A stretch of DNA of 64,000 nucleotides. Source: Posidonia oceanica. Lineage: Eukaryota > Streptophyta > Magnoliopsida > Alismatales > Posidoniaceae. Both the position numbers and the translations under genes were made by a program. Shown here piece by piece: positions 120 to 32,856 of the stretch. The stretch spans positions 126,823,001 through 126,887,000 of the forward strand of contig JAZBRS010000029.1 in NCBI GenBank assembly GCA_037176725.1, written 5' to 3'. The number at the start of each line of letters is the position of its first letter. Position 1 is the first letter of the stretch. The notes under the pieces were generated by a model, which saw only the letters and a list, made by a program, of their open reading frames with translations, was not told the origin of the DNA and did no database searches.

Positions 120-177
120 GTTGGATGCCCGTAAGCTGGGCGTCCAACGTTAGACGCCAGAGAGGCTGGTGTCCAAC
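120..177. repeat. Hairpin array, two units
   Basis: Two head-to-tail hairpins. The first pairs GTTGGATGCCC with GGGCGTCCAAC, with one G.T-type position. The second pairs GTTAGACGCC with GGTGTCCAAC. Loops are about 7-10 nt and the units abut at AACGTT. Confidence 0.8.
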
Positions 178-349
178 ACAGGATAGAAGGCAGAGGGGAG
201 AAGGGAGCATGCAAGTGATAGGTGAGAGTTGGGATCATGCATTTGGGTCACTGGGATTGAGCAGGGGCAAGCAAGCAAATAGGGGAGGCAAAATAAAATC
301 AAACAAGCCTTACCTGTGCTGAGTGCCAGGCCAGAGGCACAACCACGGT

Positions 350-407
350 GTTGGACACGAGCTAGGTCGGCGTCCAACGTTGGACGCCAACACCAGCAGC
401 GTACAAC
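350..407. repeat. Hairpin array, two units
   Basis: Same design: GTTGGAC arms pair with GTCCAAC-type arms across a short loop, and the two units join at the palindrome AACGTT. Confidence 0.8.
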
Positions 408-579
408 GCTCTGGGAGGCACAACACACAAAAAGCATGCATAAAATAGCAAAATAACTTAATGGAAGCTTAAGAACAGTTGCTAAATAGGCTAAGCATGC
501 ATAAGAACACAGGGAATAAACAAATAAGCAAAATCAGAGAGGCATGCAAGCTTTAAACAAATGCATGAGAAGCCAGGAC

Positions 580-608
580 ATTGGACGCTGAAGGCTCTGG
601 CGTCCAAC
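580..608. repeat. Single hairpin of the array family
   Basis: TTGGACGC pairs with GCGTCCAA across a loop of about 11 nt. The first base of the left arm is A instead of G. Confidence 0.7.
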
Positions 609-948
609 GACTCAGATCAGCAGACTTACCTGTTCTAAAGGGGGAGCTCAGCTCTACCCCACCTAGATGCATGCAACTACATTAAGGACGTGTTGGAAAC
701 TAAAAGGAGCATGCACAGCAGACATTTGCAAGCATTTAATACAAGGAGGCAAGATAAAAGAAGGCATGCATATAAGAACATGAGCTTCAAACTTTAAAAA
801 AAAGAAGAATACATGGCTTAAAGACATCCTAGCAAGCCTAAGCATGGCTGCCTTAGGGGCCAGGCATCTCTAAATAGGCATAGCTCACAAAATAATACTC
901 AAAATATGCATGAAGTAGGCATGGAAGCAAAGCACAGCAAGCAGACAC

Positions 949-1006
949 GTTGGACGCTAAGTGAACCAGCGTCCAACGTTGGACGCAGCTCACTCTAGCG
1001 TCCAAC
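949..1006. repeat. Hairpin array, two units
   Basis: Two perfect GTTGGACGC / GCGTCCAAC stems with different loops, joined at an 18-bp palindrome centred on AACGTT. Confidence 0.85.
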
Positions 1007-1187
1007 ACAGGCAGGAGACAAACTAATCATTAAGCATGCAAAAAACAATCAAACATGCATGGAACAAGTTAAAAACATGGTATAACATCAGAGAGAATTA
1101 AAAGGAGGCAAATAGCATATGTTTGCAAACAGGCATGCACGGAAAAGGCATGGAAAGCATTCAGATGAAGGTAGAGCAAAGCAGGCC

Positions 1188-1244
1188 GTTGGACGCGGGC
1201 CTATGCTGCGTCCAACGTTGGACGCACCAGTTGGTGCGTCCAAC
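1188..1244. repeat. Hairpin array, two units
   Basis: Two GTTGGACGC / GCGTCCAAC hairpins. In the second, the stem extends with CACC against GGTG in the loop-side bases. Confidence 0.85.
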
Positions 1245-1910
1245 ACACTGAACTTCCTCTTGGATGTGAATCACATCCAAAAGGAAGTAAAAACTTGTAA
1301 AAACTGCATGGATACTTTCTACTACACATGCATGACATAGTGGGATAGGGGGCTTACTGTTTCGCGGGCTGAAACGCCAGCTCTACCTCGTTCGCCGGAG
1401 CTGCAGATGTGTGCGCAGCAATAGGTTCGGCGAGGTCTCCTAAGCAGCTCGGAGCGCCGGAGGAGCTCGTAGCTGGTTGCAGACGGAGATGGGAGTGCCT
1501 TCTTGCTCTCGGAAGTGGAAGCTCTCTCGTTCGCTCTGTGTGGTGAGAGTGGCAATGGGTTGAAGGTGTTGGTGCAGAGGTTTGCAGGCCGAATTCTGAC
1601 GAACCCAGGTGCTGGCAGGTGTGGGTGAGAGTGTGGAGGCCATGTGGGATGTCAAAGGAAGGCGTGGGCATTGGCAGGAGGGCGATGGAGGCGAGGCGGT
1701 GGTTGACACAGCCAGCGGAAGGCAGGCCTATCAGTGAGGGCTTAGAGGGCGGGTTTTGGGCTGATATGGAGGAGATGGGTAGTAAGTGAGGTTTGGAAGG
1801 TAGTGGATGGCGTGGAGCGAAGGAAGGGACGGGTAGTAAGTGTGGGGAGGTGGTGGATTTGACGGGCGATGAGCTGGAGGGTGCGGAGCAACCGCTACTG
1901 CACTCGAGTC

Positions 1911-1997
1911 GTTGGACGCCAAACCAGAGGGCGTCCAACGTTGGACGCTGGCACAGGCCACGTCCAACGTTGGATGCTGCCTGTTCCAGCATCCAAC
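1911..1997. repeat. Hairpin array, three units
   Basis: Three consecutive hairpins of about 29 nt. Stem 1 is GTTGGACGCC / GGCGTCCAAC, stem 2 is GTTGGACG / CGTCCAAC, and stem 3 is GTTGGATGC / GCATCCAAC. Stem 3 carries a paired change, keeping complementarity. Confidence 0.88.
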
Positions 1998-3699
1998 ACA
2001 CTCAAGTGGCCAAAGCTGCAAATGGGCTTGGGCTTGGGCCTAAAAGTGTTGTAAAAGGTGCAAAAAGGCTTGGTAAAGGCTTCTAGGGTTTGGGGTAAGG
2101 TTTTGGGTTAGGAAATGGGCTAGAAAATGGGTTAGAAAAGGGAATGCCAATCCAGAGACCACACGAGCCCGCAAAAGAGAACTACCAACTTCTAGGCTGT
2201 CAGAATGGGGTGTCTACACTGTGCGACAGCCTCAGCCTCACAAGCCACACCTTTCGCCGGCCTCTCCTCTCACTGCCAAGCTTCTGCAACTCCTGCCAAG
2301 CCTGCAAACTCACCTCCCCAAGCCACTGCACGCCCACGACCACTCGAGTAGCAGCCCAGACCAAAACCAGCATCCCCCCATCCCTTCCAGTGGTGGCAAA
2401 CAGGAGAATTCAGAGAGAACACCGACCAGAACCCTTTTTTTTTCCTTCCTTCTCAGCACCAACACCTTCTGCTCTTCCTTCCCATGACCACAGTCACCCC
2501 CAGCCCTCCAAAACTCCTTCACAGCACTCACAGCACAACCACCTTCTCCACTCAATCCCCAGCTCACCACCAAACGCCCGACAGAACACCTCCTCCACCA
2601 CAAACACTTGTCCACCACTTTTGCCCAAAAACAACCCATAACTCACAATCCGCTCCAGACACCCAATCACCTCCTCTAGACCCCTCCATTGCCCTCACCA
2701 CGCCCCCACGAACCCCAACAACCACCTCCGAACAACCACCTCCGAGCCAGAACAGTCGCCGATCAACCTAGAAACTGGAATCTTTTCCAGTGCGTCGCAA
2801 GCTCGTGCCTGAGCATTCCAGAAGCTTCGCTGCAACGCCACGGACGCGCTCCAATTGCCGCACAGCTTCTAGCGCCTCCGCAGCACCCCAGCAACCACCT
2901 ACAACTTCTAGAAGGCAACCTGACATTGCCAGAGGACACTGGCACGCTTCGAAGGTAAATGACTCCATTTCCTTGCTCCTTACATGCCATTTTTGCTTCC
3001 TAGGTAGTTAGTTTTAAGGTTAGAGACCTAGGCTAGGTTTTGGGCTCTACCGTGGGGTCGTCTTCCCCGGCGAGCCCCCGCAGCTCTGCCAGCGTCGTCC
3101 CGCCGCTCCGAAGCCTCCCCCGAGCATCGCCAAGACTCCAGCAAGCCTTCCCAGCCCTCCGCGAGCCGTTCCAGGCCCTGCTCTGCCTCCTCCTTCTCTC
3201 CAACTCACCGGAGCCACCGCTGAATCGACCGTGCGTTCCAGTGTGCCGAATCATCCTAGATTTTGCCCAGATCTCCACCGAGACTCCGAGAGTCTGCTCT
3301 GCTCCGCTCCTCTCCGGACCTCACCGAGCACTCCAGGCCTCCTCCCGTCCTCCGTCTTCTCTGCAAGCAGCCTCCAAGTCGTCCGGATGCCTCTGCTAGC
3401 CTCGCCTAAGCTCCGAGATGCTTCCCAGACCTCGCCCGCTACCTTCCGCAGCCTCCAGTAGCTGGCGCGCCTCCGTCTTCCTCTGCAGAACCGCCACCGC
3501 GCCGCCCGGACGCACCAGCCACCGCCAATCGCTGCTGAGACCACCGTCGTGCTCCCCCAGACCAGCTCCAACCTCTCGGACCCTCGGCCGGGCCTGCCCC
3601 GCGCTGCTCCGCTGCTGCGCAACATTTCTTCTCCAGCTGCAGTGCTGCAGTGTCGAGAAACACTGTAGCACTGTAGTTGGATAAGGTTTTGATTTTTCT

Positions 3700-4640
3700 G
3701 TGGTTTGATGCATTAATATTTTCTTCTGCAACTTATTTTATTTGCATCTAGGTCCTGTGATGGTTTGAATTTGATTTAATTTCTGATTAAAACCATATTG
3801 CATTGCTTTTTGGCCCATTACTTTACTTTTATTGCATGCAGGTCCTTCATCCATACATATAATGCATTTAAATTTTAGTTTTAATGCATGCATTGCATTT
3901 TAGCCCCTGTGTTTATTTAATTTGCATTGCAGTCCTGATTTGGTTTGAATGTCATTTAATTTTGCATTAAAACTATACTGCATTGCATTAAAATACCGCA
4001 TGTTTTATTATTTGCATCTGAGTCCAATGTCTGGTTTGAAAAAATCATTTAATGTCTATTTTAAAATCATATTGCATTAAAATAAACTTCTGCATGTTTA
4101 AATATTTGCATTCCAGTCCTCTATTGGTTTGCATTCCATTTAAATGACATTTAGAATCATATTGCATTGAAATAAAATGCTGCATCTTTAAATATTTGCA
4201 TTTCAGTCCATCTGTTGGTTTGAAAATCATTTAAACTGCATTTTAAATCATATTGCATTGAAATAAAGTATTGCATGTTTTCAAAATTACATCTTAGTCC
4301 AATATCAGTTCATTCATTCATTTAAATCTACATTTAACTATATTGCATTGCAAAAAAAACCAAAAACATGTTTTATTTGCACATTAGTCTAGCTGCATGT
4401 TTTCACTTCATTTAAATCCTGTTTAAACTATATTGCATTGCATAAAAACCCATAAAAATGCTGTAATTGCATATCAGCCCTTTTTGCATGCATGCATCAT
4501 TTAAGTTGCATTTTTTTAAACCACATTGCATTGTTTTAAGGTCCAACTGTTTTCTGAAATTGCATGTCAGTCCCTGTTTTCAACTCTTGCATGTTTGCAT
4601 GCTTTCTTAGCATTGCATTTAGGTCCTGCATGTTTTTAAA
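3700..4640 (+). repeat. ~90-bp quasi-tandem GCATT-rich repeats
   Basis: The phrase ATATTGCATTG recurs about every 90 bp (near 4069, 4159, 4250, 4340, 4430, 4520). It alternates with TTTGCAT..AGTCC and CATTTAA phrases. Equivalent repeats occur in the LTR pieces at 38300-39100, 52400-53200 and 62760-63620. Confidence 0.7.
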
Positions 4641-5159
4641 ATTGCATTTAGGTCATTTCTTAGATTTTTGCATGCATACCTTACTGTTAGCCCTGCATAC
4701 TGCCTATACATTGTTGCATTAGCATTCCTGCATGCATCCACCTTGTTTTGCACACCCATAGGGACATTTTGCACATAGGCCCCTGTAGTTTCCCAAAATT
4801 TCACTTAGGCCCATGCACTTGTACCCTTGCATGCATAGCATCCCCATATCATTGCACATAGTCCCATGCATTCATTTGAGCATTGTTAGCCTTCTAACAT
4901 GTAAACCACCCAGCATTGCACGCATTTAGGGGCTAATTGCACTTAGACCCCTGCCTAGCTCACTTTTGCTGGCCCTTGAGCCATCTGACTTGCAACCTGA
5001 ATAACTTTTGATCGGACCGTTGGATCTTTGCGATCTAACTATCCAAGTCTTCCCGGTTGAATGATCTTTCATTTAAACCAAAGTTATCTCAAATCAGGCC
5101 TCAGATTCTCAGGATAAGCCCACCTGAAGCACTACATAGCATCCATTGCATTCCCATTT

Positions 5160-5540
5160 GCATTGCATGCATCGTTTTGCACGCCTGCACTTGTTTTCTT
5201 TTGCATTGCATCGTTTTGCGTGCATGCATTGGTTTTCTTCTGCATTTGCACCGTTTTACGTGCCCACCTTATTTTCTTTTGCTTTTGCATCGTTTTGCGT
5301 GCCCGCCTTGTTTTCTTTTGCATTTCGTCTCGTTTTGCGTGCTGTTTTGTTTTATTTGCATATCGCTTGCACTTTTGCATCATTTTGCATGCCCGCCTTG
5401 TTTTCTTTTGCATTTCGCCTCATTTTACATTTCGCTTTGTTTTATTTGCATGTCTCCTGCATTTTTGCACTATTTTGTGTGCCCGTCTGCATTTTCTCCT
5501 GCATTGCACCATTTTCCGCACCCACTTTTGCTTCCGCTCG
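5160..5540 (+). repeat. Short tandem repeats with CGTTTTGCGTGC core
   Basis: About ten imperfect copies of CACCGTTTTGCGTGCCCGC-like units spaced by T/C-rich sequence. The same motif is repeated at 39885-40110 and 53970-54200 in the inner element's LTRs. Confidence 0.7.
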
Positions 5541-5601
5541 CATGTCGCTTGCATTGCATTGTTTACCACTATTTTGCTTTATCGCCTGCATTTGCATTAG
5601 G

Positions 5602-5690
5602 GCAATGATGCTTACTGCCTAGGAGTTCTCATAAACCAGGGTTTGCCCAATTCGGAACACTAGCAGTGTTGCTGAGCACATAGCTTACAC
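5602..5690 (+). other. Conserved LTR block 1 with hairpin
   Basis: Near-identical to 40197-40284 and 54283-54370, although the surrounding LTR is diverged. It begins with GGCAATGATGCTTACTGCC; in the other two copies this is a perfect GGCAGT / ACTGCC hairpin with loop GATGCTT. A GTTCGGAACAC segment follows. Confidence 0.65.
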
Positions 5691-5806
5691 GTTTAATTTC
5701 CTGCACGCATCTTAGCACTTAGAGCATGCATTAGAGCATGCATTCAGACATTCATTGCATTTAGGCATTAGGCAAGCATTTCTCTGCATTTGCGAGCGAG
5801 ATAGCC

Positions 5807-5900
5807 TAAGAAAGACCGATTCTCGGATGTATCAAGGGTGCCTCACACCTTCCTCATGCGTAACAGGAGTCCTTGCCCTTTCTCTTGGCCCGCAATGACC
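5807..5900 (+). other. Conserved LTR block 2
   Basis: Shared with 14128-14234, 40405-40494 and 54490-54580. The core is AAAGACCGATTCTCGG, then GGGTGCCT(A/C)ACACCTTCC, then AACAGGAGTCCTTGCC and GCAATGACC. It can form two small hairpins, CCGA-TTC-TCGG and GGTG-loop-CACC. Confidence 0.7.
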
Positions 5901-6039
5901 TCTTCCTTCATCCTAGGCATGAGTCATAGCATAGCATAGCATAGCATCGCATTGTGTTGCATCGCTTTTGCTTCCGGTTTTGCATGTCTTTTCATGCATT
6001 ATCCTCAGTTTTCCTTGTCTCCCAACTTAATAGACATGG

Positions 6040-6050
6040 TAGCGACTCTG
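6040..6050 (+). other. Fossil PBS-like motif inside LTR
   Basis: TAGCGACTCTG, one base from the first 11 nt of the tRNA-Arg PBS. It is preceded by TAGACA and lies 161 bp before the LTR end. Equivalent copies are at 14343, 40647 and 54733. Confidence 0.5.
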
Positions 6051-6201
6051 ATTTGTCTTATCATTTCTTTTTCTTCTTTTTGCCAGCGTTTCCGAGTCAA
6101 GTTTCCTTCCTCGGATTCCGCCGCACATAGTGAGCCTAATGTTGATCGGTGCACGCGAGCTTTGGCATCGTGCATGGATTCGATATTTCAGGATTACTAC
6201 A

Positions 6202-7212
6202 CCAAGTTGGAGACAAATCAGTGTCAACTGGCACCTCCCAGGCGCCCAAGTGCACAACTGGCGCCTCCCAGGCGCCCCTAGAATATATTGTTGACTCAGT
6301 CTTTGGCGGTCACATAGATCACTTGGAAATATCTTGTAATTGAAATTAAGTTTCATGATTTGTAGCTCGATTTGTATCCATGATAGCCAAGGCCTTGTAA
6401 GCCTATAAAAGGAACCCATTGTGCAAAACCCTAGGGATCCTTCATCTTCCACATTAGGCTTAGACTTTCTTCTTCAATTGTTTTAGAGTTCTTCAAGCTT
6501 ATTTTCTGTAATCAATGTATTTTATTAATACAAGTACATTTCTTTATCTTAATTATGTCTTGCTCTTCTCTTTCCCTATCTTTTATTTTGATGTTTTCCA
6601 TTATCATGCCTGGCTAAGTTTCTAGATCTAGGGTTTAGATGAAGTTTATGTAATTTCATATGTTGTGATTATGTTTCTCTTTGTCTTCTCATGCTTAAAT
6701 GCTATGATTATGTAGACTGCATGTATATTACATAGATCGTTCATTATTCGATAAACTTTGATAGCTTAATATTGATAATATCTTTTTAATCTATGCTTAG
6801 GGAAGAATAACTTGGAGGTTGTATATATAATCTCAGATCTATCATATATCTTTTGATTTAGTTTGATTTGTGTGATTTTGTCTTAGGACTTGATAATCTA
6901 TGGTGCATTGCATATAGATTATGCTTGTTAGAATAAGAACCATTGAGTAAACTATCTAGATCATGAAGAAAGACAGAAAGTGGATTTAATCATGCATATT
7001 GTATTTTACATAAATGGATTCGTAACCCTAGGTTTTAATTAATTTGATTATATCTTCTAGTTTTAGTTCTTAATCATCATCACTCTCATACTCCTTTCAA
7101 TAACTAATAATTAATCTCTGTGTTTTGAAACTCTATTCTCTGTGGGATCGACTCGTATTTTGCATACGTACTACATAGTACACCGTGCACTTGCGGTTAA
7201 TTAAAATTTACA
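6202..7212 (+). repeat. Athila-like 5' LTR, first 259 bp missing
   Basis: Aligns throughout with 12486-13495 of the 3' LTR (1011 versus 1010 bp) and ends in TTACA. A TATA box (TATAAAA) lies at 6404-6410. The missing first part is expected upstream of the Tat element that interrupts it, outside the window. The two copies differ by scattered substitutions, so the insertion is not very recent. Confidence 0.85.
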
Positions 7213-7221
7213 TCAAGTTTT

Positions 7222-7239
7222 TGGCACCGTTGCCGGGGA
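7222..7239 (+). other. Primer-binding site, tRNA-Asp type
   Basis: TGGCACCGTTGCCGGGGA, one base from the complement of the plant tRNA-Asp 3' end, nine bases after the LTR. The TCAAGTTTT spacer and tRNA-Asp PBS are typical of Athila elements. Confidence 0.85.
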
Positions 7240-8347
7240 ATAGTGTTTTTATAAATATTGAGTTATTGTCGGTTATTTCTTTCTTTCCGTTTTTATAAAA
7301 AAAAAAGATTTCGTTTCGTTATATCAATCTTACAGGGATATTTAGTTCAAGATTAGAAGAATCAGGAACCAATTTCATAAATTTCCAGAAATCAGGGGCA
7401 CCTCCCAAGCACCAAATTGCACTCTAGCGCCTACTGGGCACCTAGGTGAGATATTTTCTCTGTAATTTTAGTTTCAATTATTCTTGATTTTTTTTCTAAA
7501 ATCCTGATCTAGGGTTTAATTATTGTTTCTGTTTCTATTTCTGTTTTTTCTCGTTCACTAATTTAAAAATCGAAAATCAAATTAAAAATATTTCATGATA
7601 AGATAGAAGCTTGTTTTTAGGGCATACATCATATAGTTTGCATTTAAAGTAATTTTTATTTCCTGTTATTTTATTTTGGTGATTGCTAGAGGAAAAGGTA
7701 CGTGTTCTCCTACTTGATTCTTTGCATTTTAGAGCATATGGTTAGTAGGAAAAACAACTTGTTTGAGCATAATTGTTTATTGCATATCATTTCAAAGTAC
7801 CTAAAGGCAAAACCTATAGCACAAGATAAGGTGGGGATTTCATCACCCTTCCTTAGCCCACAAATAACAAAAGAAAGCATTGAGCATTGACCTAAACTTC
7901 AATTAAAATCAAGTAGACATTGGCCCCTAAGGTTCGAGCTCAATAGGACAAGTAAAGCCTAGAGAGAATTGAATTTAAAATTCTTACTCCTTGTTGGTGT
8001 CTAAGAAAAGTGGTTCAAGAGGCCCGACCTCTTAAAAGGCAAAGTGGTTATTTAATTAGGTCCGTTGCTTACGCACGGGGAGCCTCCCACTTTCCTCCAC
8101 TGATCTGGCTAACTCGGTTTGAGAAATTTTGAACCAAGGATCTTGAAGCTTAACTTGGAAGTTAGGAGCTGTTTAGATTTCAGGTCAACATTAGAATTAA
8201 GATTTGTTTGACTTGTGTGATTAGATTAGGCATCTTTCTCCTTTATCTGTAATCTCCTCATCCATTTAGTTCATATTATCTCATCTTTTCTTCTTTTCTA
8301 TTTTCATTGCATTTTGTTTTAAAAAAAAAAAAAGTTTCATCAAGTGC
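7240..8347 (+). other. Athila leader, non-coding
   Basis: AT-rich sequence between PBS and gag. It contains two CACCTCCCAAGCACC-like phrases near 7400 that also occur in the LTR (6233 and 6263). No other gene or RNA was recognised. Confidence 0.6.
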
Positions 8348-10936
8348 ATGCCTGTTTGGGTCCGTGATTTGACTCATCGTCTCATCCATATCAAACCCAA
8401 AGAATTTGAAATGACTGATGAAGTGCACAATCCACCTCTAGCCTTAGAAGCCAGGTGTTACCCAGTGAGACTTGCACAACCTTCTTGCATTAGACTTCCA
8501 AATGCTAATGGCAACAATTTTGAACTCAAATCCAATTATATTAGCCAGTTGCCTAAGTTCACGGGTCTAGAATCTAAAGATGCTTACTGGTTCATCAATG
8601 AATTTGAGGAGGTGTATAGTATGATGAAGTTACAGCAGTTGTCTGATGATGCAGTCTGGTTAAGATTCATTCTATTTGCATTAAAAGACAATGCTAAAAA
8701 ATGACTTTATAGTCTATCAACTAATTCAATCACCACTTGGGCCCAATTTTGTACTATATTCCTGAAAAAATATTATCCTATTCATAAGACCATCAAATTT
8801 AGAAATGAAATTAATTCATCTAAACAACAAAGGGGTGAGTCTTTCTAGATGTATTATGATAGATTTAAGAATCTCTTAGCCCAGTGTCTGCACCATGGTA
8901 TTGAAAAATAGAGACTATGCCAAATAATTTATGAGGGTTTAGATATTTCAACTAGGACCATGCTCGAATCTATGTGTCAGGGAGCGTTCATGAAGAAAAA
9001 TGAGGATGAGGCATGGGAATTCCTAGGAGAATTAGCTAAGAAAACAATGCAGTAGGAAAATACAAATGATCAATTAATTGATAAACCCACATCCTCTAAA
9101 GGTGGTATTCACTCAGTAGAGTCTTCTATAGCCACTGAAGCCAAGTACAACACCCTAACTCGTAGGTTAGAAGTTCTGGAGATGAAAAAGAAAGTCCAGG
9201 TGCACCAAGTATCTAATCCTTCTCCTGTGTGTAATCATTGCCACATGATGAGTCAAGTAAGGGAGGAATGTCCCTCATTCATGGGTCAACCCACATTCGA
9301 GCCTGAACAAGTACATGCTACTTTTTGAAGGTCTGGAAAGGACCCATATGCACCCACATACAATCTGGGTTGGAGAAACCATCCAAACTTCTCATGGAAT
9401 GAACAACCTCACCAAGGAGGTAATTAGTTTACTTTCTCCTAAGGCCCTCCACAGCATTCAAATCATTCTAGGCCCAATCAATCTGCGGTCCAACAGAGCC
9501 TTCATGTAGGACTGCAGCACAATCCTCCCCCTCCAGGATTTCATGACACAAAAAGAAGACTGAGCATCCTTGAGAAAGGCGTAGAGACCCTTCTCAAAGC
9601 CAAATCCCAAACCAACACCATCATGACTACCAACACACAAGCCATAGCACGAATTAAGATGCAATTGAGTCAGTTAGCCACGTTGGTAGGAGACAGAGAA
9701 AAGGGAACCTTGCCCAGTCAACCTATACCAAATCCTAGGGGTCAAAATCAAAGCATTCATATGGTCCAAGACGACCGAATTCACCAGATCAACCAAGTTA
9801 ATGCTATCATATCCCTAAGATCTGGTAAAAAGTTTGACAATCACATCGACATGCTTGATCATGTCATTCAGACTCAAAAGAACTCATCTTCTGACTCGAT
9901 TTCACCTATCCACTCAGGCCAGTCTGAAGAACCTGAGAGTTACGAAGGACCCAACCCTGACAGTGGGCCTTCCACTAGTCCACCCATTGAGTCTGTCCAG
10001 AAGCCTATTGCCCCATTTCCAAATAAGTTGAAAAATAAAAAGGAATCAGCACAAATGGAGAAATTTTTGGAAGTTTTTAGACTGGTCAAGGTGAACATCC
10101 CCCTTCTAGATGCAATCCAACAAGTCCCTACATATGCCAAATATCTCAAGGACTTGTGCACTAGAGAAAGACCAACCAAGGTACCCAAGGAAGCTTTCCT
10201 AGCAGCCAACGTTAGCTCCATTCTGACAAACCAATTGCCTACGAAATACGAAGATCCAGGAAGTCCCACAATATCATGTGTCATTGGCAAAACCAAGTTT
10301 GATAGGGTCTTTCTAGATCTAGGGGCTAGCATTAATGTGTTACCTTATTCAGTATATCAGCAACTAGGACTAGGAGAAATGAAGAAAACTGAAGTGATCA
10401 TACAGTTAGCTGATAGATCTTTCAGGACACCAATGGGAATGGTTGAAGATGTTTTAGTCATGGTCAAAAACTTTGTCCATCCTGTAGACTTTGTAATCCT
10501 GGAAACTCAACCCTTGACAAACCTAAAAGGCCAAAGTCCTGTTATCCTAGGCCGACCATTTCTTGCTACTTCCAATGCCCTAATTAATTGTCGGAATGGT
10601 TCCATGAGGTTAAATTATGGAGATCTGACCATTTCAATGAATATTTTCAATTTGGAGGACAAATCAAGGCAGGAATCAAATGAAATATTTGAAGTTAACT
10701 TAATTGAGGATTGTTTAGAGAAAGATGATTTAATAGAGGAGGAAATCAGACATGACCCTGAATATTTTGACTAAGAATCTAAAAGAACATTTGAGGATGA
10801 ATTAATGATTTCCATAACTCCTAAGGATCGGGAAAAGACCACATCTTTGGTCAAAGTGGACTACCCCCATGTAGCTGTGGAAATTGAAAAGGAAAGTGAG
10901 GGCATGATTCGTCATGATCCTCAGGATTTTGGGTAA
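8348..10936 (+). pseudogene. Athila-like gag-protease, broken
   Basis: One reading frame runs the whole way but is interrupted by about eight stops (for example 8702, 8848, 8909, 9053, 9326, 9421, 9438 and 10772) with no frameshift. The gag part reads SNYISQLPKFTGLE..., KYYPIHKT and a degenerate zinc knuckle (CNHC...EEC near 9233-9272). Next come the Athila signatures DPYAPTYNLGWRNHPNFSW (9340-9396) and ISLRSGKKF (9810-9836). The protease has LDLGASINVLPYSVYQQLGL (10314-10373) and VILGRPFLATSNALINCRNG (10541-10600). The active-site triad reads DLG instead of DTG/DSG, as is usual for Athila. After the stop at 10772 the frame goes on to 10936, repeating an IRHDP motif. No RT, RNase H or integrase follows. 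Confidence 0.88.
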
Positions 10937-12212: not shown

Positions 12213-12226
12213 GGTATGGGGGTATT
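12213..12226 (+). other. Polypurine tract
   Basis: GGTATGGGGGTATT lies directly before the 3' LTR start TGATTAGCAC. It is the usual plus-strand primer site. Confidence 0.75.
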
Positions 12227-17564: not shown

Positions 17565-17837
17565 AGCTAAAAGTGCCCCTGTGCAAGGTGAGTAAGCCTT
17601 TCTTCCTTCTTCCTCCTTCGTTATTGACATTCTTAGTTTAGTTTTAATTTCTTATTTTTTTCATAAAGTTTTAAGGTAGCGATGAAATTCCTCGTAGTGT
17701 TTTGAGGCGTCATGACCCTTTTCCGTTTTTTCTTACATCCAAATAACTAAAATCACCTCCCCTTTTCTCTGGATTCACGGGTGTGGAGGTGGTTTGTAAA
17801 AGCCATTGTTTTTCTGAAAAAAAAACTCTATCAGTAC

Positions 17838-17893
17838 GTTATACGCGCGATCTGGCACGTCTAACATTAAACGCTGCAATATCTGTGTCTAAC
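17838..17893. repeat. Hairpin array, degenerate
   Basis: GTTATACGC-type and ATTAAACGC-type left arms with GTCTAAC right arms. Pairing is partial, more decayed than in the LTR arrays. Confidence 0.6.
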
Positions 17894-18608: not shown

Positions 18609-18664
18609 GTTAGCCACTGAGATCCCTACGTCTAACGTTATACGCAGCAGGTTCCGCGTCTAAC
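18609..18664. repeat. Hairpin array, two units
   Basis: Left arms GTTAGCC and GTTATACGC, right arms CGTCTAAC and GCGTCTAAC. The second unit keeps about eight of nine pairs. Confidence 0.65.
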
Positions 18665-19035
18665 GCATTCTTTGTGTGGCTGTCATATTTTAGCTCCTTT
18701 GTGATTTGTTTGGCAGGGGAAGACATTGAAAAAAAAAAAACCCATAACAATGACAATTCTGTTTTATTTTTACCTTTTTTAGGAATCTGTATTAAAATTT
18801 CCCAAGTTCTTGTAATTTCCTTTTCTTTGCATTTGTAAATCCTTCAAAAAGAAAAAAAAAGAGAAAAGCCAAAAAAAAGAAGAAAAGAAAAATCATATAA
18901 GAAAAAAGGAGAGCAAAAAAAAATAAAAAAAAAACAGAGCAAAAAAAAAACAGAAAACAAAAAAAGAGAAAAAGGAGAGAAAGGAAAAGCTAGAAAGAAA
19001 AGACCGGAGAAGAATAGAGGAATACTATTAAGGGT

Positions 19036-19092
19036 GTTGTACGCCTGACATAGTGCATCCAACGTTATACGCCTTACTCTGAGGCGTATTAC
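19036..19092. repeat. Hairpin array just before gag
   Basis: GTTGTACGC with a GCATCCAAC arm, then GTTATACGCC with GGCGTATTAC. It ends 38 bp before the putative gag start. Confidence 0.65.
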
Positions 19093-23729: not shown

Positions 23730-25378
23730 AGACCTGAAGTTGACCCCGATCCAAGGGCCGACCATGAGCTTCTCGAAGGTGATGGGAACGTCAACCATGA
23801 CGAGCCCACCTAGAAAGGCTCCTACCTCTACTGATGGAGGTAACTCTAGGAGCATCCCCCTAGATGCTGTAAATAAAACTTTGTTTAATTCTGCATTGTT
23901 TTCATTTCCTAGGAGTAAAAGTAATTTGCTTTCAGTTTTCAATAAGGGAGAGGATCACCATGTTAGTTCTAGCAGCTCGTGGTCAACTTCGACCACTACT
24001 TCCAAAACTGTGCGTGTGTGTCAATACACGGAGGCATTGCCTCAGGAGCTGGCTACTGCTAACAAGGTCTTCCTAGTAGAAGAATTTGATCGGTTTGGGA
24101 AGTGTGCAGGAATAGAAGCATATGAGCTAGTTAGCTATAGTGATGAGGAAGAAGATCAAGAGGCTGACTCAGACCTCCTTAAGCACCTCATGGACAAATA
24201 TGATGAGCAAACCAAGGTAGCTGAAGAAGAGATCGTGGAGGTCAACCTGGGAACTGCCGAAGAGCCAAAACCAATACTCATAAGTGCAAGCCTGAGCCCA
24301 AAAGAGCAGGAGGAAATGGTCCTAATCTTGAAAGAATTTGTAGATGTGCTGGCCTTCAAGTACGAGGATATGCCTAGTCTACAATCAGCCCTAGTGGAAC
24401 ACCTGCTTCCACTAAACTCTGGAGCCAAACCCATCAAGCAGAAGCTAAGGCGATTAAGGCTGGAACTCGCCCTTAAAGTCAAAGAGGAAATTGACAAGCT
24501 CCACAAAGCAAAATTCATCAGAGTGGTTGTGTACCCCAGTTGGGTCTCAAATATAGTACCAGTGGCCAAAAAGGACGGGAAGGTTCGGGTTTGCATTGAC
24601 TGTCGCAACCTCAACGCCGCCTATCCCAAGGATGACTTCCCTTTGCCACATATTGACTTGCTAGTGGACAATACAGCAGGATTTGAGATGCTATCTTTCA
24701 TGGATGATTTCTCCAGTTACAACTAGATTAAGCTAGCAGAGGAGGACCAAGAGAAGACGTCGTTCATCACACCATGGGGGACATACTGCTACGTAGTCAT
24801 GCCATTCGGTCTCAAGAATGCCGGCGCAACATATCAGAGAGCGATGATGACCATCTTCCACGACATGATGCACGATTGCATGGAAGTGTACGTTGACGAT
24901 ATCTTGGTCAAATCAAAAACAAGGGAAGCACACTTTGAGGCTGAAAATGAACCCAAAGAAATGTGTGTTTGGGGTAACTACTGGGAAGCTACCGGGCTTC
25001 ATCATCAGCAAGAGAGGAATTGAGGTGGACCCACAGAAGGCTAGAGCAATAGCACAGATGCCTCTGCCTCGAAACATCAAGGAACTCAGGGGACTTATTG
25101 GCCGCTTACAGTTCATCAGGAGATTCATCTCACAGCATGCAGATTGATGTAAGCCGTTTTATGAGTTACTGAAAGGAGGAAGGGAATTCACTTGGGATGA
25201 GAAATGCCAGAAAGCTTTTGATGAACTCAAAGCATACCTCATGAACCCCCCAGTCTTGTCAGCGCCTATGCCAAGGAAGCCTTTGCTACTCTATGTGGCA
25301 GCCACTGCATCATCAATAGGGGTAGTACTAGCTCAACATGACGAGGATGGGAAGAAGGAAAAACTCATCTACACATGA
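23730..25378 (+). pseudogene. Outer element RT and truncated RNase H
   Basis: A frameshift separates it from the protease/G-patch part. RT motifs in order: SWVSNIVPVAKKDGKVRVCI (about 24541-24597), DCRNLNAAYPKDDFPLPHID, MDDFSSYN then a stop at 24724, ITPWGTYCYVVMPFGLKNAG, and the catalytic YVDD at 24889-24900. A small deletion near 24930-24950 shifts the frame and removes part of the segment before NPKKCVFGV. The connection domain (LRGLIGRLQFIRRFISQHAD) and the start of RNase H (LLLYVAATASSIGVVLAQ) follow. At about 25375 RNase H ends abruptly, long before its usual end, and no integrase follows. Confidence 0.86.
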
Positions 25379-25458: not shown

Positions 25459-26803
25459 CTATCTAATCATCTTCTTCCTTTTCCTGCGCAGCACCCCCGT
25501 CGCTTCAACCCACTCCTCGGGTTTGGGCAGTAGCTTTGAATACCACTTCCAGTGCGCATCCTCCTGTGGTAGGCAGTAAGTCGAAGAAGCAGCTGATGGC
25601 TCCTCTGCATCAACATGGCAGTCCAGAGACGACCAAAGAGCCCGAATGTAGTACACCATTACTGCATCAGATGGAAGACTGCGCTCCCGAACTCGAATGC
25701 GAGGAATAAAGCTCAGCCGAGGTGGCACCTCTTTCTTCTGCCCTACCATCTCGAAGCAGAGATGGAAGTTGTACACTACAAAGTGGGTAGGCCCTATCAA
25801 CTCCAACTCAACTGAAGAGCCTCGTGCCTAGTGCTTATGAGAAAGGGACATGGAAGGCACGGAAATGTCAATAGGGGCAGCAGACAAAGAGCAAACCCTT
25901 TCCTCAATCAAATCTGTCTTCACAAGCCCAAGCCTCGGGAAATGGACCTGCAGCCACTTGGAAAGAAGGAAAGGAGAGCCTACAAAATCCCCTCCAGTGG
26001 AAACACTGGTCAGGCCAAGATATGTAGCAGCAAGAATGGCAACTGAAGGAGAGCGCCAGAAATGCTCAGTAAGGCCTATCAAGGACTCAGTGTGATAGAC
26101 ATCGAAGAAGAAATCCTTAGTGACAAATAAAGTGAGGCCTCCAATCAGTAAATGCAGACACACCAGCAGTTGATCCTGAGAGCAGAGTCGTCAATCTGGC
26201 GGAAGCTGAAGTACAAATGCGCCAAGTTGAGCTTACGACCCCTAATCACTGAGAAAATAGGCGGAAGGGTGAAGATATGGTCTATGAACGTCTGCATATT
26301 TGCTGTTCCATATGACAATGGGAAGTCAATATCTGGCCGGGCCGCTCCAATCTAAGTCACACCAAGCAGGCCATGAACATCCTCTACTAGGATTATCGCC
26401 TCACAACCCCCAAAGAAGAAAGTGTGAGTCTCAGGACTCCAAAAGGCACATGAGGCATGAAGCAAGGGCCAGTCCAAGTTAGTGCCCAATAAATCCAAAA
26501 GTCCATCAAAGCACGTACGGGCCAATACAGATTTCCTTTCTCGAGCCCAAAGCACAAAGTCCTTCACCCAAGTGGAGTAGTAGGGGAAGTCATTATCAAA
26601 GCAAGGTGTTTTGGTAAAATTGAGGATTTCCTGCAGAGAAATTCGAAAGCATGAGGAACAGAGGAGTATGAAGGGACGAACGAAGAAGATCATACCTTCC
26701 CCGTCTTGATAAGGGACATCATATGCCCTTCAATCTCTTCCAAAGGTTTTGCAACTTCCTTCTTGTTGTGCATGAAGACATTGGGAACAGAACTAGAAGC
26801 CAT
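25459..26803 (-). pseudogene. Antisense gene A: plant mobile domain protein
   Basis: Exon 1 (26803-26696) reads MASSSVPNVFMHNKKEVAKP and ends ...LIKTGK. A 65-bp GT-AG intron (26695-26631, donor GTATGA, acceptor CTGCAG) follows. Exon 2 (26630 down) has STWVKDFVLWARERKSVLAR, then the PMD signature SPETHTFFFGGCEAIILVED. It is interrupted by stops near 26352 and 26160 and resumes with DFVGSPFLLSKWLQVHFP, ending RRKRKKMIR. PMD proteins (MAIN/MAIL family) are plant proteins related to transposon-borne domains. TATA and poly(A) signals are present on the same strand. It is homologous to gene C, with the intron in the same place. Exon calls are mine, from splice consensus and reading frame. Confidence 0.72.
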
Positions 26804-26900: not shown

Positions 26901-26907
26901 TTTTATA
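26901..26907 (-). promoter_or_regulatory. TATA box of antisense gene A
   Basis: TATAAAA on the minus strand, about 100 bp upstream of the gene A start codon. A pyrimidine-rich leader lies between, and the hairpin array at 27019 lies upstream. Confidence 0.55.
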
Positions 26908-27018: not shown

Positions 27019-27150
27019 GTTGTACGCGAGACGAAGCGCATCTAACATTAGCCACGCTGGTTGAAGCGTATAACGTTTAGATTAGCTGCCCGGTGTTGGA
27101 TGCAGAGATTGAAGCGGATAACGTTCGCCACACCAGATGAGGCGTATAAC
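27019..27150. repeat. Hairpin array between antisense genes A and B
   Basis: Four to five decayed units with arms such as GTTGTACGC / GCGCATCTAAC, GTTGGATGC / GCGGATAAC and TTCGCC / GGCGTATAAC. It lies 215 bp upstream of the gene A start and about 480 bp past the gene B stop. Confidence 0.7.
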
Positions 27151-27631
27151 GTTTTATCAGTGACTTAGGTTATTGAACTTGGCTAGATTGTCCCCTAATC
27201 CGTGATTTAGTTGCATGAATCGGTTTTACCCATCCTAGAGGCTTAACTAAGATGAAATACACGTGTGAGCGTTGGTTTCATATTTTTTGGACATTCGGGC
27301 CAGTCGGAATCTCTAGTTGCTCATTTCATCAAGTAAATGGCTCATTAAGGCATCGACGACTTCAAAATTCAATTTTTAAGCTTCCAGGTGAAGTCTTTCC
27401 TTATAACCATGTCATTTACATACCATTTCACTTGAGTATGCTGGTTTTCAAGTTAACTTGGATTAAGGACCATTATTTTACCATATTGGTCGCTTAAGCT
27501 CATTTTAGCTTTGAGAAAGATAATTTAAAAGAAGTATTTGACGAGCTTGCTGAGTGTGCAGAAATCTATATCATTTCAAAATATACAATTGTTCTACAAG
27601 GTCACTGGGGCATACCCCTGAAGTACAAAAG
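27151..27631. other. Spacer between arrays and gene B
   Basis: AT-rich and non-coding. On the minus strand it is the 3' flank of gene B. No poly(A) signal as clear as those of A and C was seen. Confidence 0.4.
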
Positions 27632-30600
27632 CTAAGGAGCACTCTCTCCCTCACTCTCAGGAGCTGAAGCAGGAGTCGGAGAAAGAGCGGTAGGAGGACG
27701 AGGCGACTGCCGAACAGAAACGCCTGACGGAGCCTTGGAAACGGACCGAGAGTGGTGGCTACCCGACCGGCGGCTCGGTACAGAAGGAACGGGCACCCCG
27801 AGCCTAACACCAGCAGTAAAGGCAAACCTTCGATAGTGCCTTAGCTCAAACTCAAGCTGGGAGATAACCCCCGCCATGCTCTGAGGAAAGAAGCAATCAA
27901 AATGTCAGATACAAGCGAGGACATGGAAGACGTAAAGAAACGCTGAATTGAATCGTACCGCCTGAGATTGGGCAATCTCGGTGTCCCTGTCGGCAACCTG
28001 CTGCTCCAGCTCCCGGATCCGAGCACTACTAGCGGCAACTGTCCCCTCTAGCTCCTCCAACCTCCCAACAGAGCTAGCAGCTATGAAGTCACTGGTCCGC
28101 TCCCTCAGCTTGCTCTCTAAATAAGAAACCTACAAGCAATGGTATCAGGACCAAGGGAATTTCAAAAGCAGAAATAAAATAAAAGCATGCTTAGCTTCTC
28201 CTGGAGATGGGAGATCTCCTCTGAGCGGTCTGGGGGAGGAGCACTACTAGTCGAAGGCTGAAAAGAAAGATTCGAGTCAGTTACAATTCATAGTCAGACT
28301 ATAAAGGCTACATGTAAAGATACCTAAGAGGCAGAGGCATGCAGGCGGTCAATCTCTCTGGTCAAGACAGAGAGCTGCTGGGTCAAGTGGCGCTCCTGCT
28401 GAGCCCGCTCATCCGCCGCCTTGAGCTACAGAAGAAAGAAAGCAAGTCAGCCAAATTGAATTAACAGTCTACAAAATAAAATTCAAAAGCTCACCGTTAT
28501 CTCCAACTGGGCTCGAGAAGACTGAACCTCCTCCAGCAAGGCCACCCGGGACACCACCGCCTCCCTGGGATCTGTGTCCCCCAAAGGAAGGTTCCCGTGC
28601 CCAAGGAAGTGGGACTGGTGGAAGATCATCAAAGAAGAAAACTCCCGGTCTATCCACTCGGCCCACACCGTCTCGTCCTCCTCTGTGGCATCCGTCGGAG
28701 CAAGAGAACCACGATGGGCCCAGTCCAAGAGCTATAGACCGTAGACGTCCACCCAATGACGAGCACGGCTGCCCCCGCCGCGTGTCTCTCATCAAACTCG
28801 GCGAGGAGGAGGTAAAGGCTGAGCCTGCCGACGTCCCAGCTGTCGTAGTGCCCTGCCAATCTGTTGGAAGTGATAGTGGTTCTAGTAGTGGATCCATACG
28901 TCCCGGTCGAAAATGGCCTGATCACGGGCAATCTCGGGGACGTCTGCATGCTCTCCCTCAGCATATAGACGCCAAACCACCTAAAAGGAGCAATACATGT
29001 CAGCAAGCAGCATAAATAAATAAACAGAAGCTGAAATTAAAGTTACCTGAGCCGGGACAAGAAGCTCGAAAAGCAGACGACCGACATAGCGGTTGTCATC
29101 TACAGGCTCAAGGGCCTGCTCAGCAGCGGCCCAAAACATTCCCCTAGGAAAGGGGACACCGATAGGAGGAACCGGAGGAGAGGCAGGTCGCAGAAAGGCA
29201 AATTGGTCCCACACCCATATCTGCACGCAAAACAAGGAAGCTGTTAGCAAGAATATAATATCCAATGCCAGCTTAAATATGCAGATTTACCTGAAGGAAT
29301 GGCAGGTTCCCGCCAAGCTGGTGAGAACTACCGTCAGTGAAGCGGAATAGGGTGGAGTACAGGTGTGCCAAGCTGGCCGCACCCCAGGCGTACTCTCCCA
29401 CACGCTCCAAGTCTGCCAGGAGAGGAAGGAATCACGCTGAGAGCTTCGAGGAGGAGTGCGAAAAGAGCACCTCCCCGAACAGCACTAGAAGGAAGGCCCA
29501 CAGCTGCTGGTCGGCCTCCACGCCTGGTCCAGCTACCGTCTCTGCCAGCTCACTAACTCGGTGAACCGCAGAAGTGATCACCACAAGTTGCTCCCTGCTC
29601 ATGACTAACTGGCGTTCGACAAGCTCCTGTGCCAAGGCTGAGTAACTCGAGCGCACCTGCCCCGTCACTGGTTGGCCTGTGACCCGGAGACCGGTCAGCC
29701 GCACCATGTCCTCCAGGGAGAGGACAAACTCGCCTGTCCTCATGACGATCGAGCTCGTGCGGAAGTTCCACCGCTCTGCGACTGCCTCCAAGAACATCGG
29801 ACGGAGGGGAAAGTCTGGGATGGACAAGAAATGCCCGAATCCCATTTGATCCAGACGCTCTTGCTGGAAGGCAGCCAACACGGCGTAGGACCGGCAGACC
29901 TAACCCCAGTAGCAACGGGTCACGGCCGGTGTTTGACTCTGTAAACAAGCAAGAGGAGTCATCAGTCAGGATGAAATAATTGAATAAAATGAGTAAAAAA
30001 AAAATGAAAAGATGTCTACCTGTCCCCTCGAAGCTAGTGTGGCGGTGGCGTACTCTGATCGAGACGCATCCCTGTGTGGTCCCGATGCCTGCATATCGTC
30101 CCGAGGGATCTGCTCCTACTAGTAGTCCGGGGGATCCCTCGCATCGCCCTCTGCCTCCCGTCGAACGAAGTCGACCATGTTTCACCACCAGTTGTAGTCC
30201 TCGCCGAATTGCGCGAGGAAGGGGTCGACCGGCCTCACCTTTAGCACCTCCGCGGGGCCCACCTCGTCTAGGCCAACCTCGGGCCTCCCCTCCGAGACTG
30301 TCTCCTCCGAATCCTCGTAACTAAAAGAACTGCTAGAACCGGAGTCCGCCTCCGCCGTCGTCTCTCCGGCCTCCCCGGAACCAGAATCCGCCCCCTCGGC
30401 ATCCCCACTAGCCGCCGCCTCTGCCTCCACAGCGTCGCCACTAGCTGCCACCTCAGCCACCGCGGCACCACCACCGGTAGCCCCCGTTTTCGCTCCCGTA
30501 GCCTCGGCATCACCACCGATCGTCACCTCAAGCCCTGCCACGGCACCACCGGCCTCCGCCACCTCCGCCGCAGTCCGACTGGCCTCCACGGCCACCCCAG

Positions 30601-30958
30601 AAGCTGTTCTAGGATCAGCAACCTCAGCCACAGCCTCCACGGCCGTAGAACCAGCCTCCACTGGCGTGTCCCTGCCTGCCATGGCCTCGCCGATGACCCC
30701 TACAACCCTCGCTGCCGTTTCCCCTGCCGCTGGGCCCACGGCCGCCGCCTTCGACACAACCTTGCCGAAGGGGGAAGGGCCCGTCCGAGCCCTCTTCACT
30801 GTCCAGGTGTAAAAATGGGAGATTCTCTTCTCCATCAAAGTCACCTCGCCGGAATGAGAAGGAGAGTCACCGGAAAAGCCCGCTGGTGCCGGAGAAGAAG
30901 AAGAGGAGCGGAGCAGATGGCCACCCATGGCATAGGACGAGGACTTTATATCTTTCAA
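27632..30958 (-). pseudogene. Antisense gene B: eight-exon PMD and coiled-coil gene
   Basis: Exons on the minus strand: 30958-30020, 29938-29291, 29220-29047, 28980-28495, 28425-28324, 28257-28195, 28129-27959 and 27880-27632. Introns are 65-81 bp; all are GT-AG except the sixth, whose donor reads CT. Exon 1 is Ala/Glu/Ser-rich and low complexity. Exons 2-3 hold the PMD: ERWNFRTSSIVMRTGEFVLS, LEDMVRLTGLRVTGQPVTG, FLPLLADLERVGEYAWGAAS, then IWVWDQFAFLRP. Exons 5-7 encode heptad-rich sequence (QQLSVLTREIDRLHASAS; YLESKLRERTSDF; RIRELEQQVADRDTEIAQSQ), likely a coiled coil. The last exon is Ser/Pro-rich and ends ESEGESAP. A TATA-like GATATAAAG is only 22 bp before the ATG at 30928, so the true start is unsure. 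Stops near 30182, 30120 and 29432 show decay. Confidence 0.72.
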
Positions 30959-30959
30959 C

Positions 30960-31106
30960 GTTGTATGCGTGAATTTCCGCGTCCAACACCTCGAGAAGAA
31001 AGAATGTTATACACGCCCTATGACGCGTCCAATGTTTTGCAAGTTAAAACGTTAGCCGCTGGTTTCCCAGCGTACAACGTTGAATGCTCCATTTTCAGCG
31101 TACAAC
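30960..31106. repeat. Hairpin array upstream of antisense gene B
   Basis: Five units with arms such as GTTGTATGCG / CGCGTCCAAC, GTTATACACG / CGCGTCCAAT and GTTAGCCGCTGG / CCAGCGTACAAC. The last is a long stem with loop TTTC. It abuts the gene B start region on one side and the gene C 3' end on the other. Confidence 0.78.
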
Positions 31107-31195
31107 GCTTTAAGTTCAGGGAAGTGTTCTGAATTCTAATACTTTCGTTCAACTCATACAAATTCATTCGAAAGAGACCAAAGAGACGAAATAAT

Positions 31196-31201
31196 TTTAT
31201 T
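31196..31201 (-). terminator. Poly(A) signal of antisense gene C
   Basis: AATAAA on the minus strand, 24 bases after the gene C stop codon at 31225. Confidence 0.55.
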
Positions 31202-31224
31202 GATGATAAATGATATATTTCTAA

Positions 31225-32576
31225 CTACATTTTCTGTCTTTTTGAAGGAAACTCAATGAACAATTTAGGACGCACGCCCTCGTACCAAGCGTCATAAGTT
31301 GCAAGAGAGATGGCTTCGCAGTCCGCGTTCGAGTTCTCCCATGCAGAAAGGACTCGATTTTGCCCCTTCTCATCCCAAGTACCAGCTTGATAGAAGACCT
31401 GGATGATGTCCCCAGGGGTGTCCCTCAAGCGTGGGAGAATCATATCAGAGAAGCGAGGTAAGGGAGGTATAGCCCGAGGAGTACCCAGCATTGAGAAGCA
31501 TCATTGAGGGTTGTACCTCACAAACTCGGTCGCCCCAATCAGCATCAGGAAATACTCTGGGTCAGACACTGTCCTGAAAGACGAGGGGAGACTGAAGGAG
31601 TCCATCTGGGACTTGACCTCGCAAGCGCATAAACGGCGAATGAGCTCCTCCAAGGGAAGGCTAGCATCAAGAGCAGGCAGAAGAAAATGCTCCTCCAACC
31701 AGCATAGAACTAGGAACGGCGAACCAAAGAATGGCCCCCCGAGGTAGGCACTAGATAAGCCCCAGATGGTAAAAGCCAAAACAGACTGACTCAAACATTT
31801 CTCCGGGTTGCGCACGCAGATGCACATGAGCTCAGCATGGTAGGCACTAATAGTCAGAGCTTCATTTGTGAAGAGCACCAGTCCCCTGATCAGAATAAAG
31901 ACGCATTCCAAGCAAGAAGCCTTAGAGCGGATGCTGTCACGCTGTTTCCAGAAAAATTTCCACAAGGAGGAGAGTTTGATACAGCCATCCAGCACCAGGT
32001 CCTCCGGCACAACAACAGAGCAAAAGATGCAGTTTAAGAGAGAAAAAGAACCTACCACCCCGATTGGCAAAAGGTAGGCATCCCTACAGTAAATGGACAG
32101 GTCGGCATGTCGAGTACCTAAAAGGGCGCTCACCTCCTCCAAAAGGATGGTCAACTCCCCCGAAGAAGAAAAGAACGTGTGAGTTAAAGGATTCCATAGC
32201 CTACAGAGACCGAAGAGCACCTTCCAGTCAACAGGCTGTCGCAACTAGCGAAGAGCTTGACAAAGACCAGCCTCTTCCAAGCGCTCTTGATACTTCTTCA
32301 AAGCCCAAGAGCGGAATTGTTGAACCCAGTCCAACTAATAGGCTTTCGAGTCACGGTCGTTGTTGGCAAAAGATAGGGGCTATGAAGTAAGGAAAAATCA
32401 GCAGAAGTACGAGAATGAGAGTATGGGTAAATGATAAAAACAGGGAGTACCTTCTCATGCACCAAAAGGTTCGCCAAATGGTTGGGTATAGCCTCCAGCT
32501 GGAGTTGCACCATGTCAGAAGGAGAGGAGAAGACGGCCACTTGGAAAGCATGGCACGGGATATCACTCAAATCCAT
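31225..32576 (-). pseudogene. Antisense gene C: plant mobile domain protein
   Basis: Exon 1 (32576-32451) reads MDLSDIPCHAFQVAVFSSPS and ends ANLLVHEK. A 71-bp GT-AG intron (32450-32380) follows at the same place as in gene A. Exon 2 gives LDWVQQFRSWALKKYQERLE, a stop near 32246, then the PMD signature RLWNPLTHTFFSSSGELTIL with LEEVSALLGTRH. Later come GGPFFGSPFLVLCWLEEHFL and LIGATEFVRYNPQ, a stop at 31501, and an end in FPSKRQKM. It aligns with gene A along its length but is less decayed (three stops). It may start upstream of the chosen Met, because an acceptor-like TTGCTAG lies just before it. Function is unknown; the domain is transposase-associated in plants. Confidence 0.75.
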
Positions 32577-32665
32577 GAGGAGAAGCACAAGCCCTAGCAA
32601 GCAAAAATCAATAAGGAAAGGAAGATAAATGTTTGAACTACAAGATTCAAGCCAAGAGGAGGTCT

Positions 32666-32672
32666 AATATAG
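32666..32672 (-). promoter_or_regulatory. TATA-like box of antisense gene C
   Basis: CTATATTAG on the minus strand, about 90 bp upstream of the gene C start. The spacing resembles that of gene A. Confidence 0.4.
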
Positions 32673-32772
32673 GCCGTGCAGCCTTCATCAGATTGGAAAC
32701 CCAAAGAAAATCGGAGATTTACTGCCAAAACGGTGGTGCCCGAACAGGAAAGACAGCAGCCTGTCTCACGAC

Positions 32773-32856
32773 GTTATACGTAGCCACTTCGGCGTCCAAC
32801 GTTAGACGCGGTGTTTTACCCGTCCAACGTTGAACGCTAACAATCTAGCGTCCAAC
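32773..32856. repeat. Hairpin array upstream of antisense gene C
   Basis: Three units with arms GTTATACG.. / CGTCCAAC, GTTAGACG / CGTCCAAC and GTTGAACGCTA / TAGCGTCCAAC. It lies about 200 bp before the gene C start, as the array at 27019 does for gene A. Confidence 0.75.

Follow-up and report, generated by a model that had tools for sequence, protein, structure and literature searches.

The question raised by this stretch of Posidonia oceanica DNA (contig JAZBRS010000029.1 of assembly GCA_037176725.1, positions 126,823,001 to 126,887,000, 64,000 nucleotides (nt) in length and referred to here as the window) is why a short inverted unit, in which two 9-base-pair (bp) sequences face each other across a spacer, recurs in small arrays between positions 120 and 32,856. 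Pairs of long terminal repeats (LTRs) together with gag, reverse transcriptase (RT) and plant mobile domain (PMD) matches indicate that the window probably consists of nested LTR retrotransposons in plant DNA. On the basis of the sequence, the units are probably paired DNA sites that control the promoters of these elements, and the arrays have more in common with sites at which a protein docks than with RNA hairpins under conservation.

The units were searched for with 14 fixed positions, at most two mismatches and spacers of 10-11 nt, with 30 first-order Markov sequences as the control. The window contained 32 matches as opposed to a mean of 0.07 per Markov sequence, which shows that the arrays, first noticed in an earlier sequence-only reading of the stretch, are real and non-random. 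The isolated match at 43113 was excluded, and units 16433, 18609 and 27047 were accepted despite three to four mismatches because they adjoin other units, whereas the remaining 17 rows with four mismatches were left out (18 observed as opposed to 22.3 expected). The accepted set comprises 34 units in 17 contiguous arrays rather than the thirteen arrays counted previously; the coordinates of the seven arrays then given as examples are right, except that 30960-31106 consists of three pieces separated by gaps of 17-18 nt. Each unit reads GTTRKACGC, spacer, GCGTMYAAC, that is, two inward-facing 9-bp half-sites. Instead of the loop of 4-13 nt assumed before, the spacer measures 10 nt in 22 units and 11 nt in 12; other lengths within 4-16 nt gave two matches with up to two mismatches, and matches at 17-18 and 38-40 nt come mostly from adjacent units. 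Three groups can be distinguished: group 1 (120-1997) with 12 units, almost uniform GGA/TCC arms and spacers of 11 nt except for one, and groups 2 (16377-19092) and 3 (27019-32856) with 11 units each, varied arms and, with one exception, 10-nt spacers.

The half-site is described by the model (Y)GTTRKACGC, 9-10 bp long with an outer Y and 14.7 bits. At a threshold that recovers 62 of the 68 half-sites, seven extra ones were found outside units as opposed to a mean of 7.0 in 10 Markov sequences; as lone half-sites do not exceed chance, half-sites are retained only as facing pairs. The mean identity between units is 92% in the arms as opposed to 26% in the spacers for group 1, and 74% as opposed to 33% for groups 2 and 3 (32 of the 34 spacers compared, using a single length per group). 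Since the arms are alike and the spacers are not, conservation acts on the sequence of the arms but mainly on the length of the spacer. The observed/expected ratio of CpG is 1.06 within units as opposed to 0.46-0.74 in three surrounding regions, which is partly due to the motif, as it includes CpG itself, and 16 of 17 losses of the inner CpG resemble deamination.

The 22 units of groups 2 and 3 fall within one LTR retrotransposon, element A, and the 12 of group 1 within another, element C. The features are as follows; the arrays and the lone unit come from the unit search and carry no strand.

120-177: array of two units, group 1, element C
350-407: array of two units, group 1
580-608: lone unit, group 1
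949-1006: array of two units, group 1
1188-1244: array of two units, group 1
1911-1997: array of three units, group 1
16166-17543, plus strand: 5' LTR of element A, TG...CA, from its termini; target-site duplication (TSD) ATCCC at 16161-16165
16377-16460: array of three units, group 2, LTR U3
16635-16690: array of two units, group 2, LTR U3, TATA box 65 bp downstream
16755-16760, plus strand: candidate TATA box for the promoter in the LTR, matched by consensus alone
17838-17893: array of two units, leader
18609-18664: array of two units, leader
19036-19092: array of two units, leader, shortly before the candidate gag-region start codon at 19130
24727-25020, plus strand: RT fragment of element A, Pfam RVT_1, E 8.3e-13
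26355-26803, minus strand: antisense region AS1, candidate ATG 26803, weak PF10536 match
26902-26907, minus strand: TATA-like site of AS1, consensus match
27019-27150: two arrays of two units, 27019-27074 and 27095-27150, AS1 TATA-like site 112 bp downstream
29435-30928, minus strand: antisense region AS2, separate open reading frames (ORFs), candidate ATG 30928, PMD at 29435-29899
30945-30950, minus strand: TATA-like site of AS2, consensus match
30960-31106: four units, 30960-30987, 31006-31033 and 31051-31106, AS2 TATA-like site 10 bp downstream
31504-32576, minus strand: antisense region AS3, separate ORFs, candidate ATG 32576, weak PF10536 match
32666-32671, minus strand: TATA-like site of AS3, TATATT, match to a weaker consensus
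32773-32856: array of three units, AS3 TATA-like site 102 bp downstream
55009-55735, plus strand: 3' LTR remnant of element A from LTR homology, followed by the TSD ATCCC (55736-55740)

The 5' LTR of element A begins at 16166 (TGTAGATACC) and finishes at 17543 (TATCCACA), the 3' LTR remnant is 94% identical to 16818-17543, and the ATCCC duplication borders both ends of the element. There were four candidate end pairs with a duplication of 4-6 bp, and the chosen pair ends at the limit of LTR homology. Another retrotransposon, element B, is inserted in the 3' LTR of element A, the U3 part of which is absent and was presumably deleted. The order of the parts is LTR, leader, RT fragment, pol and then the three antisense regions. 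Element A, with its LTRs, TSD and RVT_1 match, may belong to the Tat clade (Ogre/Retand) of Ty3/gypsy retrotransposons, and it has antisense extra ORFs with PMD beyond pol, as Ogre elements do. The match is clear in AS2 (PF10536, E 2.1e-16, 60.5 bits, 29435-29899), where 50 of 52 relatives at E 0.001 have a precomputed PMD, and weak in the other two regions. A structure model of the AS2 domain was too poor for fold comparison (mean predicted local distance difference test score, pLDDT, 54.6), and no related solved structure was found at E up to 1. A search for short PMD-like words yielded so many chance hits that it was set aside. None of the antisense regions is a single open frame, for which splicing and decay are both conceivable. 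Element A also contains an ORF with a G-patch domain (22638-23729) between gag and RT, and tandem repeats of 43, 34 and 30 bp (32948-34600) in the interval from the antisense genes to the lost 3' LTR. Beside its 5' LTR, 14570-16100 appears by eye to be an inverted gypsy-type fragment; in 15132-15641, Pfam detected no RT.

Within element A, two arrays lie in U3 upstream of the TATA box at 16755, three in the leader and the rest near the antisense regions, upstream of the minus-strand TATA-like sites, which are 112, 10 and 102 bp away at 26907, 30950 and 32671, respectively. Four of the eight clusters of element A are followed on one strand, within 130 bp, by a TATAWW word as opposed to 0.97 after circular shifting (P 0.013), and three by a TATAWA word as opposed to 0.38 (P 0.008), with both the clusters and the 130-bp limit defined after the distances were known. 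As the half-sites face each other across about one helix turn, they would be suited to binding by a dimeric (or multimeric) protein, and one factor present at the LTR and antisense promoters could open them together, on both strands. Binding would place the promoters of the element under common control and most likely activate them or protect them from silencing, as VANC does at VANDAL arrays.

Judging by position, the element itself may supply the binder in the form of its antisense PMD protein. As part of the same reading, we tentatively consider that the antisense PMD proteins bind the half-sites of the LTR promoter as well as those of their own promoters in an anti-silencing or self-activating circuit, and that this would be a VANC-like system which arose independently in a retrotransposon lineage; this proposal as a whole is rather unlikely. 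That a host factor is the binder is no less likely, and it is possible, although short of probable, that the units are host transcription factor sites borrowed by retrotransposons that encode no binder of their own. U3 enhancer repeats bound by host factors occur in plant retrotransposons, and the half-site is common to two elements which are otherwise dissimilar; on the other hand, arrays upstream of the same element's antisense genes suggest private control, with which a host factor is still compatible. The DNA sites are common to both explanations and it is the binder that differs, which means that our confidences overlap, being highest for promoter-controlling DNA sites, lower for a host binder and lowest for the PMD circuit.

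The sequence-only reading argued for maintained structure from arms that usually change jointly or retain G.U pairing. When each array is represented by a single unit, the matches between the nine arm positions equal chance expectation (122.6 observed as opposed to 122.6 expected), and permutation gave 248 as opposed to 245.4 within groups (P 0.28) and 248 as opposed to 246.7 within arrays (P 0.38). In the subset of 21 units that are 28 nt long, covariation scored 0.148 as opposed to 0.146 in shuffled alignments, with 233 of 500 shuffles as high; RNAalifold predicted no consensus structure for these units, and the freely varying position 5 pairs in just 7 of the 21. The non-Watson-Crick cells of the 34 units on the plus strand comprise 12 G.U, 22 A.C and 24 others, so that A.C exceeds G.U, and the resemblance between the arms of group 3 is below chance (P 0.998). 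As the within-group, within-array and one-unit-per-array permutations and the pair-counting score are all null, stem covariation in the arms is rejected: once the duplication of units is allowed for, it is absent from the 9-bp arms, which the sequence-only reading had named as the outcome that would speak against it. Its argument for maintained structure fails for the arms, while its idea that the arrays bind a protein is plausible. Arms that vary independently are expected if the units are DNA sites of which each half is recognised separately.

It is unlikely, given these results, that the units are RNA hairpins retained for their structure, with a role in binding a protein, in packaging or in controlling translation of the element RNA. 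Such hairpins would agree with the folding results, as the plus-strand folding z is -3.1 or lower for 13 of the 17 arrays (the exceptions are 17838, 18609, 27095 and 31006), and the group 1 and LTR U3 arrays form very stable folds on either strand, with z of about -4 to -10. However, stable folding follows from the facing half-sites and alone does not prove selection for the fold, and the location in U3 does not decide between RNA and DNA, since U3 is also in the 3' end of the genomic RNA.

Several observations weigh against paired DNA sites, some of which concern the units themselves and favour the RNA hairpins. In free permutation, the arms of all 34 units match more often than expected (P 0.024; 0.007 for positions 4-6), the first of which is attributed to the uniformity of the arms in group 1. 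In group 2 alone the values are 0.006 for the arms and 0.0008 for positions 4-6, but this signal falls to P 0.16-0.17 within arrays and to 0.115 and 0.085 when each array contributes a single unit; arm covariation is thus gone once the relatedness within arrays is removed. Spacer positions 10 and 11, which lie beside the arms, pair in 37 of 68 cases as opposed to 21.3 expected (position 10 in 20 of the 34 units, position 11 in 17), and position 10 shows all four pair types. None of 5000 within-group permutations was as high, and P was 0.046 within arrays; with one unit per array, 17.4 pairs were observed as opposed to 11.2 (median P 0.025), and P was 0.02-0.03 once five units whose spacers are related or palindromic had been omitted. 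In group 1 alone P was 0.25, and an 11-pair structure, in which the stem is extended to positions 10-11, scored 0.192 as opposed to 0.157, with 39 of 500 shuffles as high. Independently read half-sites do not predict this pairing, and it may leave room for a structural role. The spacers of groups 2 and 3, in turn, are 33% identical as opposed to 25% after shuffling (0 of 1000 shuffles as high), from which it follows that the conservation partly stems from shared descent or copying.

This likeness, and the recurrence of TGGNT-type spacers across arrays (units 16377, 16405, 16433, 16663 and 31051), would fit functionless short duplicated repeats that slippage, conversion or copying by fold-back had spread in retrotransposons. 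Retand elements, moreover, often contain tandem repeats in the stretch from pol to the 3' LTR (PMC11963269), and the window has the same. We nevertheless regard functionless repeats as improbable, because the spacers are much less alike than the arms and fixed in length, lone half-sites are not above chance, and the units occur in two otherwise dissimilar elements.

The remaining points against promoter-controlling DNA sites concern the element. The PMD matches of AS1 (PF10536, E 8e-5, 22.4 bits) and AS3 (E 1.8e-5, 24.6 bits) are weak and lie below the curated cut-off of 34.9. The PMD-like stretch of AS1 lies in a different frame from the candidate ATG 26803, as does the PMD-like ORF of AS3 (31504-32244) from the candidate ATG 32576, and a precomputed domain is present in none of the six relatives of AS3. 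DNA binding by PMD is not demonstrated in the passages cited here. No TATA word lies within 130 bp of four of the eight clusters, of which three are in the leader and one is in U3; the TATA boxes, like the start codons, are consensus matches only; and one copy each of elements A and C was examined.

A third alternative, which like the RNA hairpins follows a suggestion made from the sequence, is that the units give rise to small RNAs, or are targeted by them, through which the host silences the element. Inverted repeats can yield double-stranded RNA, but a stem of 9-11 bp is far below the length of known plant precursors. The spacers differ in nearly all units, which leaves few common 21-24-mers, and no Rfam match reached the gathering score anywhere in the window. 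Although targets of RNA-directed DNA methylation are over-represented at regions targeted by VANC21 (PMC10398659), small RNAs are a very unlikely explanation.

Paired DNA sites can be compared with the VANDAL transposons of Arabidopsis, where short motifs are likewise repeated in the noncoding parts of an element with an extra gene. VANC is transposon-encoded, binds short noncoding motifs and causes a loss of DNA methylation (PMC5735166, PMC10398659). Its target motifs are YAGTATTAY and, for VANC6, AGTTGTCC/AGTTGTAC (PMC5735166). GTTGTAC occurs in 6 of the 68 half-sites (units 379, 16377, 19036, 27019, 31051 and 31079) and GTTGTCC in one (unit 16377), an overlap with VANC6-type motifs that is perhaps due to chance. 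In contrast to VANDAL, the host element here has LTRs and RT, and the sites are inverted pairs with fixed spacing; none of 30 Pfam queries, some of which overlapped and which covered part of the frames, gave a VANC-like match.

Element A itself resembles several plant retrotransposons in its antisense ORFs beyond pol, its PMD and its nearby tandem repeats: in Retand, the stretch that separates pol from the 3' LTR contains antisense ORFs and tandem repeats (PMC11963269), PMD is present in 57% of Ogre elements (PMC6317226), and gene23 of Grande undergoes antisense transcription from its own upstream promoter (PMC7264820). Unlike these, as described in the cited parts, element A carries paired-site arrays at its LTR and antisense promoters, and unlike Ogre and Retand its pol seems, judged by eye, to break off in RNase H. 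Extra genes are common in Tat elements and their function is left open (PMC11963269, PMC6317226). If the arrays are the targets of these genes, both the function of the genes and the role of PMD would be directly testable with one protein and a short probe; PMD would gain a defined DNA target, and sequence-specific self-protection would have evolved in LTR retrotransposons besides VANDAL transposons.

The host PMD proteins MAIN and MAIL1 are required for the expression of genes with a short promoter motif, while the cited parts leave DNA binding by the MAIN/MAIL1 complex undecided (PMC7156037, PMC9899485). The DOWN motif of MAIN/MAIL1, CATGCAGTTT (PMC9899485), differs in sequence from the half-site and was rejected, and no link to enod40 emerged from the cited part of PMC10578108. 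Among the matches listed in the literature searches, which mostly did not extend to subscription journals, no description of such arrays was recognised, and none of those listed for sequence strings concerned retrotransposons by title. One scan of viral contigs gave no match. The sites of VOZ and NAC factors presumably do not fit in spacing or sequence. Gypsy elements of peanut contain numerous GGCGTT...AACGCC palindromes, a possible parallel.

Element C, to which group 1 probably belongs, appears to be truncated by the left edge of the window and to end near an LTR-like start at 2211. Apart from the units, no similarity between the element C stretch and element A was found at E 0.001, and the three ORFs scanned gave no match above the cut-off. 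The LTR that follows it resembles the LTR end of element B at 5537-6149 (75%). CATGCA/TGCATG words reach a density of 14 per kb in 1-1350, between the group 1 arrays, 8.5 in 2211-6200 and 0.9 in 13497-35354. The sole CATGCAGTTT-type word of the window lies at 1301; CATGCAGTTT is the published DOWN example from the MORC1 promoter, and its occurrence could be due to chance in a CATGCA-rich stretch.

Element B has LTRs at about 35355-40921 and 49443-55008 that are 98% identical; its span contains no accepted unit and the three ORFs scanned no PMD match. At the end of its LTR, 40775-41440 consists of repeats of about 142 bp with copies of TGGCGACTCCGCTGGGGA resembling a primer-binding site, two of five being mismatched, and the LTR itself seems to hold one such copy. 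The internal region contains tandem repeats of 51 bp (45175-45680) and 49 bp (47400-47547). Between elements C and A, 6201-13496 is occupied by a smaller LTR element, nested close to where another LTR ends, with 1-kb LTRs of 95% identity and an ORF for an aspartyl protease.

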